This document shows positions 17,659 through 61,263 of a stretch of DNA of 64,000 bases, in pieces; position 1 is the first letter of the stretch, and every line of letters starts with the position of its first letter. The translations under genes were made by a program, and so were the position numbers. The notes below the pieces were generated by a model. It was not told the DNA's origin and ran no database searches. It was given only the letters and a program-made list of their open reading frames with translations. Source of the stretch: Anaerovibrio lipolyticus LB2005 (lineage in GTDB: Bacteria; Bacillota; Negativicutes; Selenomonadales; Selenomonadaceae); NCBI RefSeq assembly GCF_000621545.1, contig NZ_KK211304.1, forward strand, positions 1 to 64,000, in the 5' to 3' direction.

Positions 17659-17688
17659 GGCTCATGTTGTGTGTAAGTAGGAGTGAGT

Positions 17689-18207
17689 ATGGTGTTTTTG
17701 CAGCCTAATATAAAAAGGCGGGACATGATAAATTGTGCCTTGTGTGATAATGCACCCTGCGATGAGGCGTGTCCGTCCGGTATTAACCCAGGTGAAAAGC
17801 TGAGAGAAATATGGTTGGGAGGCGAGCATCATGCGGTGTCCTTTTTGCCGGAAACGGATGCTTGTGCAGCTTGTGATGCTCCATGTGAAAAGGCCTGTGT
17901 TCGCCCGGGTCTGGTGCCTATAAAAGGGCTGATTACCCGTCTCAGAAATGAAGTAAAGCCAGTGATAACAAAGGAGCAGCTGGCTGATGAAAGCATTTTG
18001 CAGACGGATATTTGTGGTATACCTTTGGAAAATCCATTTTTGCTATCTTCCTCCGTTGTGGGCAGCAATTATGATATGTGTGCCAGAGCTTTTGAGGCAG
18101 GATGGGCTGGGGTTTCCTTTAAAACGATATGCAATTCACTTGTGCTTGCTGGTATGCCCAGCCGGAGCAATAGAATCCTCCGGGAAAAGGGTAAAGAAAT
18201 GAAATAA
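17689..18207 (+). pseudogene. Truncated PreA/dihydropyrimidine dehydrogenase-like iron-sulfur protein (172 aa)
   Basis: The N-terminus has two cysteine clusters, CALCDNAPCDEACPSG and CAACDAPCEKACVRPG. They resemble the 4Fe-4S-binding regions of PreT/GltD-type oxidoreductases. It continues into the start of a PreA-type flavin TIM barrel (NPFLLSSSVVGSNYDM, then FEAGWAGVSFKTI). The barrel is normally about 300 residues, but the frame ends after roughly 55 of them with an unrelated Lys-rich tail, so the catalytic FMN domain is missing. I interpret it as a 3'-truncated gene; a retained Fe-S carrier is possible. TAGGAG at 17678-17683 supports ATG 17689. Confidence 0.65.
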
Positions 18208-18257: not shown

Positions 18258-18302
18258 TATCAGTTGAATAAAGGACAATATTGTACCCAAGGGGGGATTA
18301 TT

Positions 18303-21152
18303 ATGAAGCGAAACAAGAAAAAAGAGCTGGTGGAGCTATCCAAGAATACCAAGACCCTTTACCAGACGTTATGTGCCAATATTAAGGGGCAGGATGCAGC
18401 CATACATTATTTCGTTCAGGGAATTTTTAAGGGCCAGTTTATTCCTGAATCATCGGGGCAGACACTTCATAATATTTTCCTGCTATCGGGGCCTCCTGGC
18501 ATTGGCAAGTCCCGTTTGGCCCATATTACGGCAGATGTACTGAAGCGCAGTATTTTGGAAATTAATCTGGATATGAACGCGGCGGAAACCTTTGCCAAGG
18601 ATTTGGTTAATACCGTAAGCGGTAGCAAAAAGGCTGGCAGGATTACAAAATTCGTGGAGGAAAATCCCAGCGGCATTTTGCTGCTGAAAAATATAGAAAA
18701 GGCCAGTCCAAAGGTGGTTTCTGCTATAAGCCAGATCATTGAAACGGGCCGTGTGGTGGATGCCTCTACGGGAAAGTCGATATCCTTTGGGGAGAGTATT
18801 ATTATTTTTACTACCCATGTAGGGGCGGAGCTGTATCTAAATGACAATCTTGGCTCCATGCTGCCTAAATCCGTGATTTTGGGCTCCTTTGCCAAGGAGC
18901 TGGAAGAATCTGATTTTCCGATTATTTTCTTCTACGAATATTTTAATAATGAAAATATTATTTTCTTCAAGGACATGGCGGTTAACCATTTGCTTGAGCT
19001 CATGGAGCAGAGCTTTTTTGACTTTGCCAATGAAATTAAAAATGAGTATGGCTATGATATGGATTTGGACCCGGATATGCTGAATCTGTGCCTGTTTAAT
19101 CAGTGTGATATGATTGATGCCAATTCTGTATTGCCTCTAAGCAGGGCATTTCTTAAAAATGAATTTTATGAATTAAGCCGTCATCTGGCACCAGATGCTC
19201 TTACAAAAATCCAGAAAATTATTTTCACGGTGGAGTGTCCTGAGGTGGAGAGCCCTATGGCCACTTTGTTTAATTATAAGGAAAAGCCTCAGGTGATGCT
19301 GGTGGCAGACAGGGAAAAATATAAATGTCTGCTGGAAAATGAATTTATAGATTACATTTTTGTCACCAGTATCGATGAAGCGGTGAAAACCCTTTCTAAT
19401 ACTATTCTTTCCTTTGTGGTGGTGGACCTTATGGAAGGAGTGGAGGACAGGGGATTTAATGTGCTGAGCCTGGATGATGAGGTATCGGTAGGTCTTGGCG
19501 TTTTTGAAATTGTTCGTGAGAATCTTCCCACCCTGCCAGTTTATCTCATTAAGCACGACAACATTACTTTGGCGGATTACTTTACTTTTATGCAGAAGGG
19601 GGCCAGAGGGACGGTGGATCTTTCCGTGGACCGTGAACACGCCCAGGCTGAGATGCTGCTGGTTGCACGGGATACCCTTATTCAGAAGAACTATGATGCC
19701 CTTCAACGGGAGGATTTAATAGTAAAATATAACACGGCTCAGCAGCTTTCTGATGATGGTAAGACAGCTGAAGTAATTTTCTATGATTTTGATTTTGAAA
19801 CCCTGAAGGGACCAGATCCAGTGGATGAGTATCTTGAGGAAGAGAAGGAGCCACGGTATTTTGATGATATAGTGGGAGGTACCAGTGCTAAAGAGGATTT
19901 AAAATATCTGAAGGAGTATTTGGTTAATCCTGAGGCCTTTGTGATGAAATATCACAGTGTGCCAGGGGGAGTTCTGCTCTTTGGTTCCGCTGATGCAGGG
20001 AAGGTTTCTCTGGCCAGGGCGTTGGCTACTGAGGCGGAAGCAAGTCTGTTGATGATAACCCCATCAAGATTGGCTGACCTTACCCCTGAGGGGGCCTGCC
20101 AGTTATTAAAGGACCTTTTTGAAAAGGCCATTCGTGAGGCACCAGCGGTTATTCTGATAGAGAAGTTTGACCTGTTGATAAAGGCCTGCGGACTGGGGGC
20201 TGTAAGAACATTTATCAATGGTATCAAGGACATAAAAAATTGTGGTTCGCCAGTGCTGTTTGTGGGAACGATGAACTGGTCCCATTCAACTGTTTCTGAT
20301 GAAAATTCTGAGTTGGATCCGGAGCTGCTGCACCTTTTGGAGCACAAGATATATGTTCGTTTGCCTGACCGTGATGAACGTATTGCTGGTATCAAGAAAG
20401 CCCTAAACAATAAAGGAATAACAACAATTCCTGATACCATTATCAATAATATTGCAGATCGTGTTTTTGGACATAGTATAGCGGATATTAATGATTTTAT
20501 TTCCTTGGCTACCCGTATGGCCTTAAAGCAGCAAAAAGAGGTGGACAGTGATATTCTTTCAGACGCCCTTGACGAGCTGACATTTGGTCAAAAGCATGAT
20601 TGGGAGGAGATTAACTATTTTGCCACTGCAGTGCACGAGGCGGGACATGCTTATCTCCTGTGGCTTACCGGTGAACAGTCATCCTTTGTAACTATTGTGG
20701 GCCGGGAGGAATACGGTGGCTACACCAAGCCAAAGGTAAATGAAAAAATCTCCAAGAACTACAATCGTCAGTGGTATGTTGACAAGATACGTGTTAGCTT
20801 GGCGGGACGTGCAGCTGAGGTGGTTTTCTTCGGGGAAAAGGAAGGGGTCAATGCCGGTATCAGCGGCGATTTGGAAAATGCTACTGTTCATGCTGTTCTG
20901 ATGGTTAATAATCTAGGTATGGGTAAACAGCTTCGGGCCTATATACCATTGGAAACCCTTTCTGTAAGTCCAGCGGCGGTGAAGGTTTATGAAGAAGCAA
21001 ATGAAATAATACAGCAGGAATACGAAAACACCTTGAAAATTGTAAAAAAAGGCAAGAAAGCTATTAAGGCACTGGCAGACAAGCTGGTGGAGAAATATCA
21101 GCTTACAGGTCCTGAAATAGACGAAATTTTTGCCAAGTTTAAGAAGGCATAG
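18303..21152 (+). CDS. Chimeric AAA/receiver-like/FtsH-like AAA-M41 metalloprotease (949 aa)
   Basis: An unusual soluble relative of FtsH. Residues about 20-200 form a Clp-type AAA domain: intact Walker A GPPGIGKS (63-70), but the Walker B acidic pair is replaced (LLLKNIEKA). About 328-455 looks like a receiver fold, with VVVDLM and a closing KGARGTVDL. From about 515 an FtsH-type AAA domain follows with a weakened Walker A, GSADAGKV (561-568), and VILIEKFD at Walker B. The M41 peptidase has HEAGH (778-782) and the third zinc-ligand block AGISGDLENAT, so the protease centre looks intact. There are no N-terminal membrane helices, unlike FtsH. AAGGGGGG before ATG 18303 sets the start; an in-frame ATG at 18252 lies in a hairpin. 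Confidence 0.8.
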   Translation: MKRNKKKELVELSKNTKTLYQTLCANIKGQDAAIHYFVQGIFKGQFIPESSGQTLHNIFLLSGPPGIGKSRLAHITADVLKRSILEINLDMNAAETFAKDLVNTVSGSKKAGRITKFVEENPSGILLLKNIEKASPKVVSAISQIIETGRVVDASTGKSISFGESIIIFTTHVGAELYLNDNLGSMLPKSVILGSFAKELEESDFPIIFFYEYFNNENIIFFKDMAVNHLLELMEQSFFDFANEIKNEYGYDMDLDPDMLNLCLFNQCDMIDANSVLPLSRAFLKNEFYELSRHLAPDALTKIQKIIFTVECPEVESPMATLFNYKEKPQVMLVADREKYKCLLENEFIDYIFVTSIDEAVKTLSNTILSFVVVDLMEGVEDRGFNVLSLDDEVSVGLGVFEIVRENLPTLPVYLIKHDNITLADYFTFMQKGARGTVDLSVDREHAQAEMLLVARDTLIQKNYDALQREDLIVKYNTAQQLSDDGKTAEVIFYDFDFETLKGPDPVDEYLEEEKEPRYFDDIVGGTSAKEDLKYLKEYLVNPEAFVMKYHSVPGGVLLFGSADAGKVSLARALATEAEASLLMITPSRLADLTPEGACQLLKDLFEKAIREAPAVILIEKFDLLIKACGLGAVRTFINGIKDIKNCGSPVLFVGTMNWSHSTVSDENSELDPELLHLLEHKIYVRLPDRDERIAGIKKALNNKGITTIPDTIINNIADRVFGHSIADINDFISLATRMALKQQKEVDSDILSDALDELTFGQKHDWEEINYFATAVHEAGHAYLLWLTGEQSSFVTIVGREEYGGYTKPKVNEKISKNYNRQWYVDKIRVSLAGRAAEVVFFGEKEGVNAGISGDLENATVHAVLMVNNLGMGKQLRAYIPLETLSVSPAAVKVYEEANEIIQQEYENTLKIVKKGKKAIKALADKLVEKYQLTGPEIDEIFAKFKKA

Positions 21153-21232
21153 TATAATTACAGGTGTTGAGGACACTGGTTGGACAAGCTTTGTTTAATT
21201 TTATGGCCAGGTTCTACAGAAAGGTGCTTTGT

Positions 21233-56300: not shown

Positions 56301-57136
56301 TGGAAACTCATTTGGGTATGGCTGTTAGAAATATCGGTACTCAGATTAAGAACGGTGACCCTACAGTTGAGAAGCGTCTCCGTGCTATTGGTTATGATTT
56401 TGACAAGTATGGCATGCCTAAGTCTGACAAGGCTGGCGTTCATATTGCAACTCCAGTATTCGATGGTGCCCGTGAGAAGGATGTATTCGATACTATTCGT
56501 GCTTCCGGCATGGATGAGGATGCCAAGACTGTTCTTTACGATGGCCGTACTGGTGAGCCTTTCAAAAATAAGGTTACTGTTGGTTGCGTATACATGCTGA
56601 AGCTGCATCATCTGGTTGATGATAAGATTCATGCCCGTTCCGTTGGTCCTTACTCCTTAGTTACCCAGCAGCCTCTGGGTGGTAAGGCACAGTTCGGTGG
56701 TCAGCGTTTCGGTGAGATGGAGGTTTGGGCACTGGAGGCTTATGGTGCTGCTTACACCCTGCAGGAGATTCTGACTGTTAAGTCCGATGATGTTGTGGGT
56801 CGTGTTAAGACCTATGAGTCCATTGTTAAGGGTGAGAATATCCCTGAGCCAGGCGTACCAGAGTCCTTCAAGGTTCTCATCAAGGAGCTCCAGAGTATCG
56901 GTCTGGATATTAAGGTTCAGGATGAGAATGCCAACGAGATTATGGTTCAGGACGATGAGGAAGACATCAGAGATGCAGCCAACGAGCTGGATGTTGATGT
57001 AAATGGTGTAGATGATTCCGGCAATGTGGCAGCACCTTCCGATGAGTATACGGAGGATGATGCTGAAGCAGCGGATGACTATTCTGATACTGACTTAATC
57101 GTTGACGTTAATGCCGATAATTTTGACAATGAATAA
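53309..57136 (+). CDS. rpoB: DNA-directed RNA polymerase subunit beta (1275 aa)
   Basis: The second largest subunit of the core enzyme. The rifampicin region is recognisable ([20 protein letters not shown] then [20 protein letters not shown]), as are [14 protein letters not shown] and the C-terminal [20 protein letters not shown]. The rif-pocket residues look like the susceptible type. The C-terminus ends in a long acidic Asp/Glu tail (about 1215-1275), longer than in Bacillus. AAGGAG at 53292-53297 favours ATG 53309; the GTG at 53297 overlaps it. The stop overlaps an ATG in the rpoC start region. Confidence 0.97.
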
Positions 57137-57156
57137 TGGAAGGGAGTGACACGCCC

Positions 57157-60100
57157 TTGTTGGATGTAAATAACTTTGATTCAATGCGTATAGGTCTGGC
57201 GTCTCCTGATAAGATCAGAGAGTGGTCTTACGGTGAGGTTACCAAGCCAGAAACTATTAACTATCGTACTTTAAAGCCAGAGACCTCCGGCCTGTTCTGT
57301 GAGCGTATCTTTGGACCAACCCGCGATTGGGAATGTCATTGCGGTAAGTATAAGAGAATTCGCCATAAGGGTACTATCTGCGAGCGTTGCGGTGTTGAAG
57401 TAACCCGTGCCAAGGTTCGTCGTGAGAGAATGGGTCACATTGAATTGGCTGCCCCTGTATCTCACATCTGGTACTTTAAGGGTATTCCAAGCCGTCTGGG
57501 CCTTGTTTTGGATATTGCTCCAAGAGCCCTGGAAAAGGTTTTATATTTTGCCTCTTATATTGTAATTGACCCAGGTACTACTGAGCTCAGCAAGAAGCAG
57601 CTTCTCAGCGAGAAGGAGTACAGCGAGTATCGCAGCAAGTATTCCTCTGCCGCTTTCAAGGTAGGTATGGGTGCTGAGGCCATCAAGGAGCTGCTGGTTG
57701 AAATGGAAGCAGATCTCCCTGAGGATCAGCAGAAGCCAGAGGAGGGCATTATCAGCCGTCTTGATCTTTTGCATCAGGAGCTGACCAATGAGCTGAAGAC
57801 TGTAACCAGCCAGCAGCGCCGCCTCAAGGCAATTCGTCGTCTGGAGGTTGTTGAGGCATTCCGTAAGTCCGGCAACAAGCCTTCTTGGATGATTATGGAT
57901 GTGGTTCCAGTTATTCCACCAGAGCTGCGTCCAATGGTACAGCTGGATGGCGGTCGTTTTGCAACCTCCGATCTCAATGACCTGTATCGTCGTGTAATTA
58001 ACAGAAATAACCGCTTGAAGCGCCTTTTGGAGCTTCATGCACCAGATATTATTGTCCGTAACGAGAAGCGTATGCTTCAGGAGGCTGTTGACGCCCTTAT
58101 TGATAATGGTCGTCGTGGCCGTCCAGTTACCGGTCCTGGTAACCGCCCTCTGAAGTCCTTGTCCGATATGCTTAAGGGTAAGCAGGGTCGTTTCCGTCAG
58201 AACCTCCTCGGTAAGCGCGTAGACTACTCTGGTCGTTCCGTTATTGTAGTAGGTCCTGAGCTGAAGCTCCATCAGTGCGGTCTTCCTAAGGAGATGGCTC
58301 TGGAGCTCTTTAAGCCATTCGTTATGAAGCGTCTGGTTTCCGATGGTATTGCCCATAACATCAAGTCCGCAAAGCGCATGGTAGAGCGTGCCAAGGATGA
58401 GGTTTGGGATGTACTGGAAGGCGTAATCAAGGAGCATCCAGTTCTTCTGAACCGTGCACCTACACTGCATCGTCTTGGTATTCAGGCCTTCGAGCCAGTC
58501 CTTACTGAGGGTCGTGCACTGAAGCTGCATCCATTGGCATGTACTGCATACAACGCCGACTTCGATGGTGACCAGATGGCTATCCATCTTCCACTGTCCG
58601 CTGAGGCGCAGGCCGAGGCCCGTGTGCTGATGCTGGCAGCTAACCACATCCTTGCTCCTAAGGATGGTGGCCCTATCATCGTTCCTTCCCAGGATATGGT
58701 TCTTGGTTCCTACTATCTGACTGCTGTAAGAAATTCCAGCCAGGGCAGACCTATCGTAGGTGAGGGCAAAATCTTCACTGGTATCAACGAGGCACTGCTT
58801 GCTTATCAGCATCAGGAGCTGGATATTCAGGCTGAGATTAAGGTCCGCATGAAGGATGTTGATGAGGATGGCAATGTAGTTAAGGATTATGGTCTGGTTC
58901 GGACTTCTCTGGGCCGTATGATTTTTAATGAGACACTGCCAAAGGCTGTTCGTCAGTTCAGCCAGGACAAGAAGACCGGTGAATGGTCTCTTGGTATGCT
59001 CATGAACAAGAAACAGCTGGGCAAGCTGGTTGACATCTGCTTCAAGACTCTTGGTGCCAGCGAAACAGCAGTTGTTATTGATAATGTTAAGAATTTGGGT
59101 TACCACTATGCTTGTATCGCTGGTATGACCGTTGCTATCTCTGATATCAAGGTTCCAGAGAAGAAGCAGGCTCTGTTGGATGAGGCAGAGGCTAAGGTTA
59201 AGAAGACCCAGCGCCAGTTTGAGCGTGGTCTCATCAGTGATGAGGAGCGTTACAAGAAGGTCTGCAAGGTTTGGGACGATGCCACTAACCTGGTTGCCGA
59301 TGCAATGTATGACAACTATGCAGATAACGAGCCATTTAACCCAATTTACATGATGGCTGACTCCGGTGCCCGCGGTAACAAGTCCCAGATGCGTCAGCTG
59401 GCTGGTATGCGTGGTCTGATGGCTGATCCATCCGGTAAGACCATCGAAATTCCAATTACCGCTAACTTCCGTGAGGGCCTGTCCGTATCCGATTACTTCA
59501 TTTCTTCCCATGGTGCCAGAAAGGGTTTGGCGGATACTGCACTTAGAACCGCTGACTCCGGTTATCTTACCCGTCGTCTGGTTGATGTTGCTCAGGACGT
59601 TATCGTTCGTGAGGAAGACTGCGACGTTGTAGGTATTAACCTGATTCGCGAGCGTGCTAAGCTGGCAGAGTCTGCTGCTGCAGCAGTTGAGCAGCTGAAG
59701 GAAACTCTGGTGGGTCGTATTCTGGCTTCTGATGTTATCAGCCCAGAGACTGCCGAGGTTATTGTTGAAAAGGGTGTAACTCTTGATGAGGAAATCCTTA
59801 AGACCATTGGTGAGGCCGGTGTGGCAGAGATTACCCTCCGCGGTTCTTCTTCCAACAGCGATGCTGCTATTACCAATGCCGCAGCTACTGACACTGTTAA
59901 GCTCGGTGCTCCTGATGAAAATATCAGAAAGTCCATCAAGTCCGCAATGGTAGCAGAGATGATGGGCAAGGATACAACAGCAGCTGTTGTTGATAGCCAG
60001 GGCGTTGAAATCGTTCCTGCTGGTGTACCTCTCACTGAGGAGTACATTGAGGCTGTTCTTTCTAGCGATGCCAAGGAAGTTAAGGTCCGCAACAATAACA

Positions 60101-61263
60101 TCCGTGGTATTGAGGTTGAAGCTATTGTTGAGGGCAGCGGCGTTATTGAGCCACTCAAGGATCGTATCGTTGGCCGTGTACTGGCTGAGGATATTATTAA
60201 TCCTGAGACTGGCGAAAAGGTTGCTTCCATTAATGACGATATTGATGAGAAGCTGGCTGATGAAATCGTTAAGGTTCGTAACAAGGTATCCATCCGCAGC
60301 GTACTGACCTGTAAGTCTCAGTATGGTGTCTGCATCAAGTGCTATGGCCGTGATCTGGCTAATGCAACCAAGGTTAATGTGGGTGAGGCTGTTGGTATTA
60401 TCGCAGCTCAGTCCATCGGTGAGCCTGGTACACAGCTGACAATGCGTACATTCCACTCCGGTGGTGTCGCAGGCGGCGACGATATTACCCAGGGTCTGCC
60501 ACGTGTCGAGGAATTGTTCGAGGCACGTAAGCCTAAGCATAATGCCATCATCGCTGAAATCGAGGGTGACGTTACCGTTACCGAGAAGGATAAAATCTTC
60601 ACCGTTACCATCACTCCTAAGGAAGGCAAGGAGAAGGCCAAGGAATACGTTCTGCCATTTAACTCCCGTCTTGCTACCAGAGATGGTGACCATATCATGC
60701 CTGGTGACAAGCTCACTGAGGGTTCCATTAACCCACATGATATTCTCCGTGTCTGTGGGCTGAAGGAAACCCAGAACTACCTCGTATATGAGGTACAGAA
60801 GGTTTACAAGCAGCAGGGTGTTGGTATCAACGATAAGCATATTGAGGTTATGGTTCGTCAGATGCTCCACAAGGTTCGTATCGAGGCTTATGGTGGCACC
60901 GACTTCCTGCCAGGTGAATATGTTGACATCAACAGCTTTGAGGCTGCCAATACCAAGGCTATTGCTGAGGGTAAGGAGCCAGCTGTTGCTAAGCCAATTC
61001 TCCTTGGTATCACCAAGGCTGCACTGGCAACTGATTCATTCTTGTCTGCCGCATCCTTCCAGGAGACTACTCGTGTCCTGACTGATGCTGCTATCAAGGG
61101 TAAGGTTGATCCACTTCTTGGTCTGAAGGAAAATGTTATCATTGGTAAGCTGATTCCGGCTGGTACTGGTATGGGCTGCTATCGTAACATCAAGGTGGTT
61201 TATGAAAATGAACCGGAGCAGGCTGTAGAGGCAGAGGCTGAAGCAGAAGCAGCTGCTGAATAA
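57157..61263 (+). CDS. rpoC: DNA-directed RNA polymerase subunit beta' (about 1368 aa)
   Basis: The largest core subunit. The N-terminal zinc finger ([20 protein letters not shown]), the catalytic Mg site [10 protein letters not shown], the trigger-loop region and the second zinc site (RSVLTC to CIKCYGRD) are all present. Between about residues 850 and 1048 it carries three related segments of about 45-50 residues (VGRILASDV..., MVAEMMGKD..., VGRVLAEDI...) where most Firmicutes have one. The C-terminus is Ala/Glu-rich. TTG 57157 fits AAGGGA at 57140-57145; ATG 57136, overlapping the rpoB stop, is the alternative start. Confidence 0.96.

Follow-up and report, generated by a model that had tools for sequence, protein, structure and literature searches.

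The gene at positions 18303..21152 (+) of the window analyzed here, a 64,000-nucleotide stretch of contig NZ_KK211304.1 from Anaerovibrio lipolyticus LB2005, is a single open reading frame encoding a protein of 949 amino acids plus stop. As judged from its sequence, this protein, carried by a single Anaerovibrio lineage, would be a cytosolic zinc protease of the FtsH type (M41) that derives from a tandem AAA+ machine, both AAA modules of which would now act as non-hydrolyzing scaffolds; we give this explanation an even chance of being correct. The order along the chain is a Clp-D2-like AAA module (AAA1), a receiver-fold domain, an FtsH-like AAA module (AAA2), and the M41 protease. The significance of the protein lies in a protease center held under strong selection while both of the motors fused to it appear to have lost their working residues.

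A Pfam scan placed AAA_2 at residues 59-180 (E 4.3e-14), AAA at residues 557-685 (E 1.1e-16), and Peptidase_M41 at residues 774-942 (E 1.3e-22). The AAA_2 score of 53.3 bits exceeds the cut-off of 27, identifying a Clp-type module, and the M41 score of 81 bits likewise exceeds its cut-off of 29.9; the NCBIfam model for FtsH (TIGR01241) reached 148.7 bits, below its cut-off of 600. The AAA1 module, including its small domain, spans residues 20-316 (18360..19250, +) and resembles the second AAA modules of ClpC, ClpE, and ClpB in the Protein Data Bank (PDB), with a PDB sequence search of the N-terminal 316 residues aligning it to ClpC residues 506-798 (E 5.3e-18). The AAA2 module, of the FtsH/p97 class, spans residues 519-765 (19857..20597, +) and matches the fold of FtsH 2ce7 with a Z score of 22.0 and a root-mean-square deviation (rmsd) of 3.0 over 239 aligned residues. 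The C-terminal 439 residues as a whole match FtsH in the PDB sequence search, and their AAA part also matches p97/Cdc48. Structure searches using VIA with the full-length model returned AAA proteins in all 50 rows listed, as one domain dominates, and matches to the defense system collection PADLOC were confined to the AAA parts. There is no predicted transmembrane segment: the highest 19-residue Kyte-Doolittle mean is 1.60 (residues 616-634, within AAA2), compared to 2.49 in the FtsH of the same genome. An initial annotation, made from the sequence alone, had proposed a Clp-like AAA, a receiver-like domain, an FtsH-like AAA, and an M41 protease in one soluble protein that lacks the FtsH membrane anchor. 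Every element of this proposal holds in light of the Pfam, PDB, modeling, and hydropathy results; the domain searches yielded no plain known family and a receiver fold is present in the predicted model of the middle region.

The M41 zinc metallopeptidase domain (residues 774-942; 20622..21128, +), which also matches FtsH in the PDB, carries the HEAGH zinc site at residues 778-782 (20634..20648, +), and the HEXXH signature is kept in all ten orthologs, a set that includes the window protein. A GDLENAT motif occupies residues 855-861. Within it, Asp856 (20868..20870, +) aligns with the FtsH position that we take to be the third zinc ligand and is present in all nine readable orthologs. Aligned in this way, the zinc site reads as intact, in agreement with what was first proposed for the protease center.

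We then compared the motor residues of both AAA modules in a residue table covering the ten orthologs, a more distant relative from outside the genus (genome G521), and the FtsH and ClpB-type proteins of the same genome, the latter being ClpB by our own reading. In AAA1, the Walker A motif GPPGIGKS (residues 63-70; 18489..18512, +) conforms to GxxxxGK[ST] in nine of ten orthologs, with ortholog L012 carrying GPPKIGKA. However, the Walker B acidic pair D-E is replaced by K-N in all ten (residues 129-130; 18687..18692, +; motif LLKN), though the Walker A is kept, and the arginine-finger position is occupied by N, G, or D, with Arg absent throughout (10/10). AAA2 contains a degenerate Walker A, GSADAGKV (residues 561-568; 19983..20006, +), with V or A at the Thr position in every ortholog. 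Its Walker B reads E-K in place of D-E (residues 620-621; 20160..20165, +; motif LIEK): across the orthologs, the Asp position remains acidic (nine Glu, one Asp), and K or Q takes the place of the catalytic Glu in all ten. The pore loop reads T-P-E rather than F-V-G (residues 594-596; 20082..20090, +) and the arginine-finger region HLLEH (residues 677-681; 20331..20345, +) has no Arg, both in 10/10 orthologs. The FtsH and ClpB-type proteins of the same genome have standard residues at the aligned sites, with FtsH sensor 1 falling in an alignment gap. The alignments show that both AAA modules are without the residues predicted to support hydrolysis and that AAA2 is also without the pore aromatic, in line with the altered Walker B motifs and weak second Walker A of the initial annotation; the motors look dead, while the protease does not. 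Compared with the ClpB-type protein, the AAA1 pore segment is short by three columns, but this is no sign of decay because the relative in G521 has the same gap.

The gene is under strong purifying selection. The other nine orthologs are 64-99% identical to the window protein, with counterparts in A. lipolyticus sharing 98-99% identity. The ratio of nonsynonymous to synonymous substitution rates (dN/dS) over the full length is 0.026-0.106 in six of seven ortholog pairs, the seventh being undefined through saturated dS. Of four regions compared, M41 has the lowest dN in all seven pairs, noting that L012 covers only the start of this domain.

The middle of the protein has a predicted receiver fold (residues 329-460; 19287..19682, +). 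We modeled residues 317-517 from nine sequences with a mean predicted local distance difference test score (pLDDT) of 73.5; ten-residue means were 87-91 for residues 327-376 and 85-91 for residues 397-456, falling to 63-69 in the loop at residues 377-396. The order of strands and helices is that of a (beta-alpha)5 domain. A Foldseek search with this model gave a best E value of 1.3e-6 and 324 matches at E <=0.001, and the 50 titles listed were mostly receivers or response regulators, the exceptions being seven 6oec rows together with 3bre and 3grc. VIA-align agreed, with the 50 rows listed having Z scores of 13.2-14.9 and rmsd of 1.9-4.4 over 112-150 aligned residues; these are response regulators according to their titles or, for a few, their protein names. 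Sequence searches fell below significance: Pfam Response_reg matched only L012 among five members scanned (13.4 bits against a cut-off of 30.2; E 0.087), the best PDB profile match was the NtrC1 receiver (E 0.12), and hhalign gave a probability of 1.1% (E 0.048). A receiver fold is therefore supported by the predicted model and the structures that it matches.

The phosphotransfer positions of this domain were paired through a weak alignment, in which three positions were aligned and two found replaced. Asp375 (19425..19427, +) aligns with the phospho-acceptor Asp of receivers and is invariant in all ten orthologs. In contrast, the beta5 Lys position is an invariant Leu440 in the ten orthologs and all seven rows compared have Lys, Arg, or Gln at the beta4 Thr/Ser position. 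By these residues, the middle domain is probably a pseudo-receiver. Regulation through the receiver, one reading of the earlier suggestion of a regulated protease, is hence weakened: the Asp is conserved, but the other two positions are replaced and G521 has a Lys at the Asp position.

Evidence on ancestry comes from G521, which provided the sole match outside the genus when 398 genomes of the phylum were searched with a middle-region profile (A4, made from Anaerovibrio rows only; E 1e-5); the three positives were the window's own genome, the Anaerovibrio genome G014, and G521. The G521 frame encodes 974 amino acids before it runs off the end of a 4.4-kb contig. In a one-against-one comparison, its alignment to the window protein covers 813 columns at 26% identity (E 2e-71), and its receiver region alone scores 36.2 bits compared to 26.2 for the best of 1000 shuffles. 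It has the same AAA1-receiver-AAA2 order as the Anaerovibrio protein, with motor residues intact: GPPGVGKT and FDEIEKAH in AAA1; GPPGTGKT, FIDEIDA, and RFDR in AAA2; and a Trp at the position of the FtsH pore Phe. No M41 domain was found for this fusion, as the contig ends first, and the single M41 match in the G521 genome is its ordinary FtsH. A match to Clp_N (12.7 bits; cut-off 20.7) is a hint only. Completeness of this genome is 79% and contamination 4%. Contamination seems an unlikely source of the contig, since its composition (54% GC; tetranucleotide correlations of 0.84 and 0.82 to the longest pair of sampled stretches and of 0.59-0.82 to eight shorter contigs) lies inside the range of other contigs; the contig is likely native to its genome. 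Adjoining the G521 relative is a divergent frame (L051, 3166-4401), cut by the contig end, that we take to be sensor-histidine-kinase-like.

Given this shared order and the intact motors of G521, the Anaerovibrio protein is most simply read as a derived, motor-dead form of a tandem AAA machine. Its sequence is probably that of such a machine with dead motors and a retained protease. The receiver had been described as spliced between the AAA modules; it does sit between them, but its recurrence in the same order outside the genus is better explained by an older shared architecture.

Several known systems provide points of comparison. FtsH proteases are described as membrane-anchored, ATP-dependent machines (PMC9020784). 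The AAA2 and M41 domains of the Anaerovibrio protein are collinear with FtsH (4ww0) over about 430 residues (E 8.7e-38) and share its HEXXH and Asp ligand position. It differs from FtsH in lacking the membrane anchor and motor residues and in having an added Clp-like AAA and receiver. The same genome also encodes an FtsH whose M41 domain is matched in full (255.9 bits). AAA1 and its small domain resemble the second AAA of ClpC, ClpB, and ClpA, though AAA1 has lost the Walker B and arginine finger. The best-studied parallel is LonC (MtaLonC), in which the Glu of Walker B, the two sensors, and the arginine finger are gone; it has no ATPase activity, binds six nucleotides per hexamer, and cleaves unfolded but not well-folded substrates (PMC3391209). 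Like the Anaerovibrio protein as read from its residues, LonC is an AAA+ protease with a dead ATPase and live protease. The protease types differ, however, with no Lon (S16) domain in the Anaerovibrio protein; the Pfam scan gave no match to the Lon protease family at E values up to 1. Plant FtsHi proteins are FtsH relatives found in complexes that have intact AAA residues but lost HEXXH (PMC8197885), making them a mirror image of the Anaerovibrio protein, which keeps HEXXH and loses AAA residues. RssB is described as a response-regulator relative that steers the AAA+ protease ClpXP (PMC7226468); in contrast, the Anaerovibrio receiver fold is part of the protease chain itself, with phosphotransfer residues missing. 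On Klebsiella plasmids (H1-H6), clpK and ftsH are annotated close together as separate proteins, with no evidence of shared origin with the fusion. Among the matches listed from titles and abstract openings of open-licence PMC articles, there was no description of a Clp AAA-receiver-FtsH AAA architecture, which may be printed elsewhere.

Our favored explanation is that the AAA modules would still assemble into a ring with the M41 sites enclosed. Any bound nucleotide would sit in AAA1 and have a structural role. The pseudo-receiver and AAA1 may bind a substrate or partner, and entry to the M41 sites would be controlled by these domains or by a partner. The protein could then cleave substrates that are unfolded, peptides, or brought by a partner, with no ATP spent, beside the ordinary membrane FtsH; the working mode would be like that of LonC, but built on FtsH. 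A number of observations weigh against this explanation. Without the AAA2 pore aromatic, it is hard to see how a substrate would be threaded, and AAA2 retains GK in 10/10 orthologs and the sensor-1 Asn in 9/10, which speaks against complete motor loss. In the full-length model, built on only ten near sequences (mean pLDDT 57.5), the M41 part is below 45, and the geometry of this domain hence rests on sequence homology. The neighboring genes point to no pathway or substrate. In addition, the motor-intact relative is one 4.4-kb contig from a 79%-complete genome with any protease domain outside view, meaning the ancestry hangs on thin evidence from a single sequence.

One variant of this explanation is that ATP on the AAA1 Walker A switches the M41 ring with the energy state of the cell, without hydrolysis. 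Such gating by ATP would account for why Walker A is kept in nine of ten orthologs even though the Walker B is gone from all ten, but L012 departs from the motif and the replacement of the Walker B Asp, which has an established role in Mg-ATP binding, by Lys may impair the binding of Mg-ATP. ATP sensing by AAA1, which the initial annotation had also raised, is possible, its one basis being this Walker A, and we regard the variant as unlikely. Carrying a very slightly lower probability is a mixed ring, in which the protein would join the FtsH or a Clp protein of the same cell, serving there as a regulator or as an additional protease subunit, and the partner would supply ATP hydrolysis and arginine fingers. 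The standard motor residues of the resident FtsH and ClpB-type proteins are consistent with such a partnership, as is the presence in complexes of plant FtsHi, which have lost one activity (PMC8197885); however, the absence of an anchor and the presence of two AAA tiers would make a shared FtsH hexamer geometrically odd.

The remaining alternatives fare worse. The loss of motor residues would also fit a scaffold or adaptor that serves as a binding platform, with proteolysis no longer its function and HEXXH incidental, yet it is M41 that has the lowest dN in all pairs and all three zinc positions are kept, making this quite improbable. It is very doubtful that the protein remains an unfoldase-protease driven by ATP through non-canonical catalytic residues: the conserved GK, acidic Walker B Asp position (10/10), and sensor-1 Asn of AAA2 would suit one, but the catalytic Glu, arginine fingers, and pore aromatic are lost in every ortholog. 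Hardest of all to credit is a pseudogene or decaying fusion; many motifs are lost, but no stops occur in the nine full-length orthologs or in the copy split on two contigs, and the full-length dN/dS values are those of a constrained gene.

We tentatively propose, with somewhat less than even confidence, that these proteins represent a new class of soluble double-tier AAA+/M41 protease. This class would comprise a motor-intact form, hinted at by G521, and the Anaerovibrio form, which would have abandoned ATP hydrolysis in both tiers to become a receiver-gated and energy-independent zinc protease. To our knowledge, no such conversion has been described earlier in the FtsH lineage and this would be the first. 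With a motor-intact relative at hand, the contribution of an AAA ring to an M41 protease beyond ATP hydrolysis becomes testable.

Anaerovibrio are rumen bacteria. The protein is encoded by 10 of 16 genomes of the genus (the window's own and G001-G015), one copy being split across two contigs; in the other six, matches were to the FtsH or Clp part alone, with no fusion. The A4 profile was positive in the identical ten among 380 genomes of the class, all of one genus. The named carriers are all Anaerovibrio: A. lipolyticus (DSM 3074 and UBA3726), strains JC8 and RM50, and two metagenome-assembled genomes (MAGs). A scan of named genomes returned seven loci, six of them from Anaerovibrio; the seventh, in a Lachnospiraceae MAG, matches only the FtsH part, at 27%. 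When the ordinary FtsH proteins of 15 of the 16 genomes were placed on a tree (G004 left out), presence of the gene mapped as one change (branch support 99/98; 0/500 shuffles as low). A single gain and a single loss cannot be told apart here. Since FtsH rows of other genera fall among both groups (four with the non-carriers and one long row close to the carriers), the two groups need not be sisters. The ordinary FtsH itself separates carriers of the gene from non-carriers, and the genus may comprise two lineages.

Wider searches recovered little beyond these proteins. A profile to which G521 was added (A5) matched one of four genomes in G521's class, namely G521 itself, and none in three other classes (0/17, 0/4, and 0/72 genomes), where without a known positive an empty result shows nothing. 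Searching the 398 phylum genomes with the G521 protein gave eight genomes at E <=1e-54, with G521 and G014 matching across the fusion and the other six at residues 715-973 at most, i.e., the FtsH AAA alone; only two candidates were scored per genome listed, and a weak fusion might have escaped notice. No plasmid or phage record matched at least 80% of the query, no plasmid matched the G521 middle region, and no relative was encoded in the viral contig stretches found with profile A2. For viral loci found with the G521 protein, none of the best 80 of 597 matched the A5 middle-region profile at E <=10 (controls 4/4). Five viral rows with a matched range extending to 917-932 were rejected as Clp-type frames or a frame with two AAA matches in reverse order.

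Among the further features of the gene, a beta-hairpin linker between the receiver and AAA2 (residues 470-515; 19710..19847, +) has strands in both models, with low confidence there in the middle-region model. Translation most likely starts at ATG 18303, which is preceded by a probable ribosome-binding site, AGGGGGG (18290..18296, +), as inferred from the sequence. A longer in-frame start at ATG 18252 was rejected, given that the orthologs are alike only from the Met at 18303 onward and that AGGGGGG precedes that ATG.

The gene lies downstream of an L,D-transpeptidase-like gene and a short Pre-like gene and upstream of yhdT, panF, and agcS. NCBIfam matches support panF, agcS, and PreA; the transpeptidase gave none and yhdT fell below the cut-off, and hence the names L,D-transpeptidase-like and yhdT are our own reading. 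The order of the gene, yhdT, and panF is found at five of six named Anaerovibrio loci (not L037) and at L011 of a more distant group; it is not in the L010 stretch, and L012 stops at a contig edge. A promoter-like site, TTGCCA-17-TATAAT, matches the consensus at 11/12 positions across the gene end and ahead of yhdT-panF (21130-21158). This is a consensus match only, with nine such sites in the scan compared to 6.9 (sd 2.4) in shuffles, and weakly questions an operon with panF. The Pre-like gene (17683-18207) encodes 174 amino acids with a PreA-like match at residues 106-155, compared to 501-502 amino acids for counterparts in L033, L034, and L035, and looks truncated in this genome. Elsewhere in the window, an open reading frame of 1109 amino acids (57541-60870, -) lies antisense to a frame of 1375 amino acids (57136-61263).

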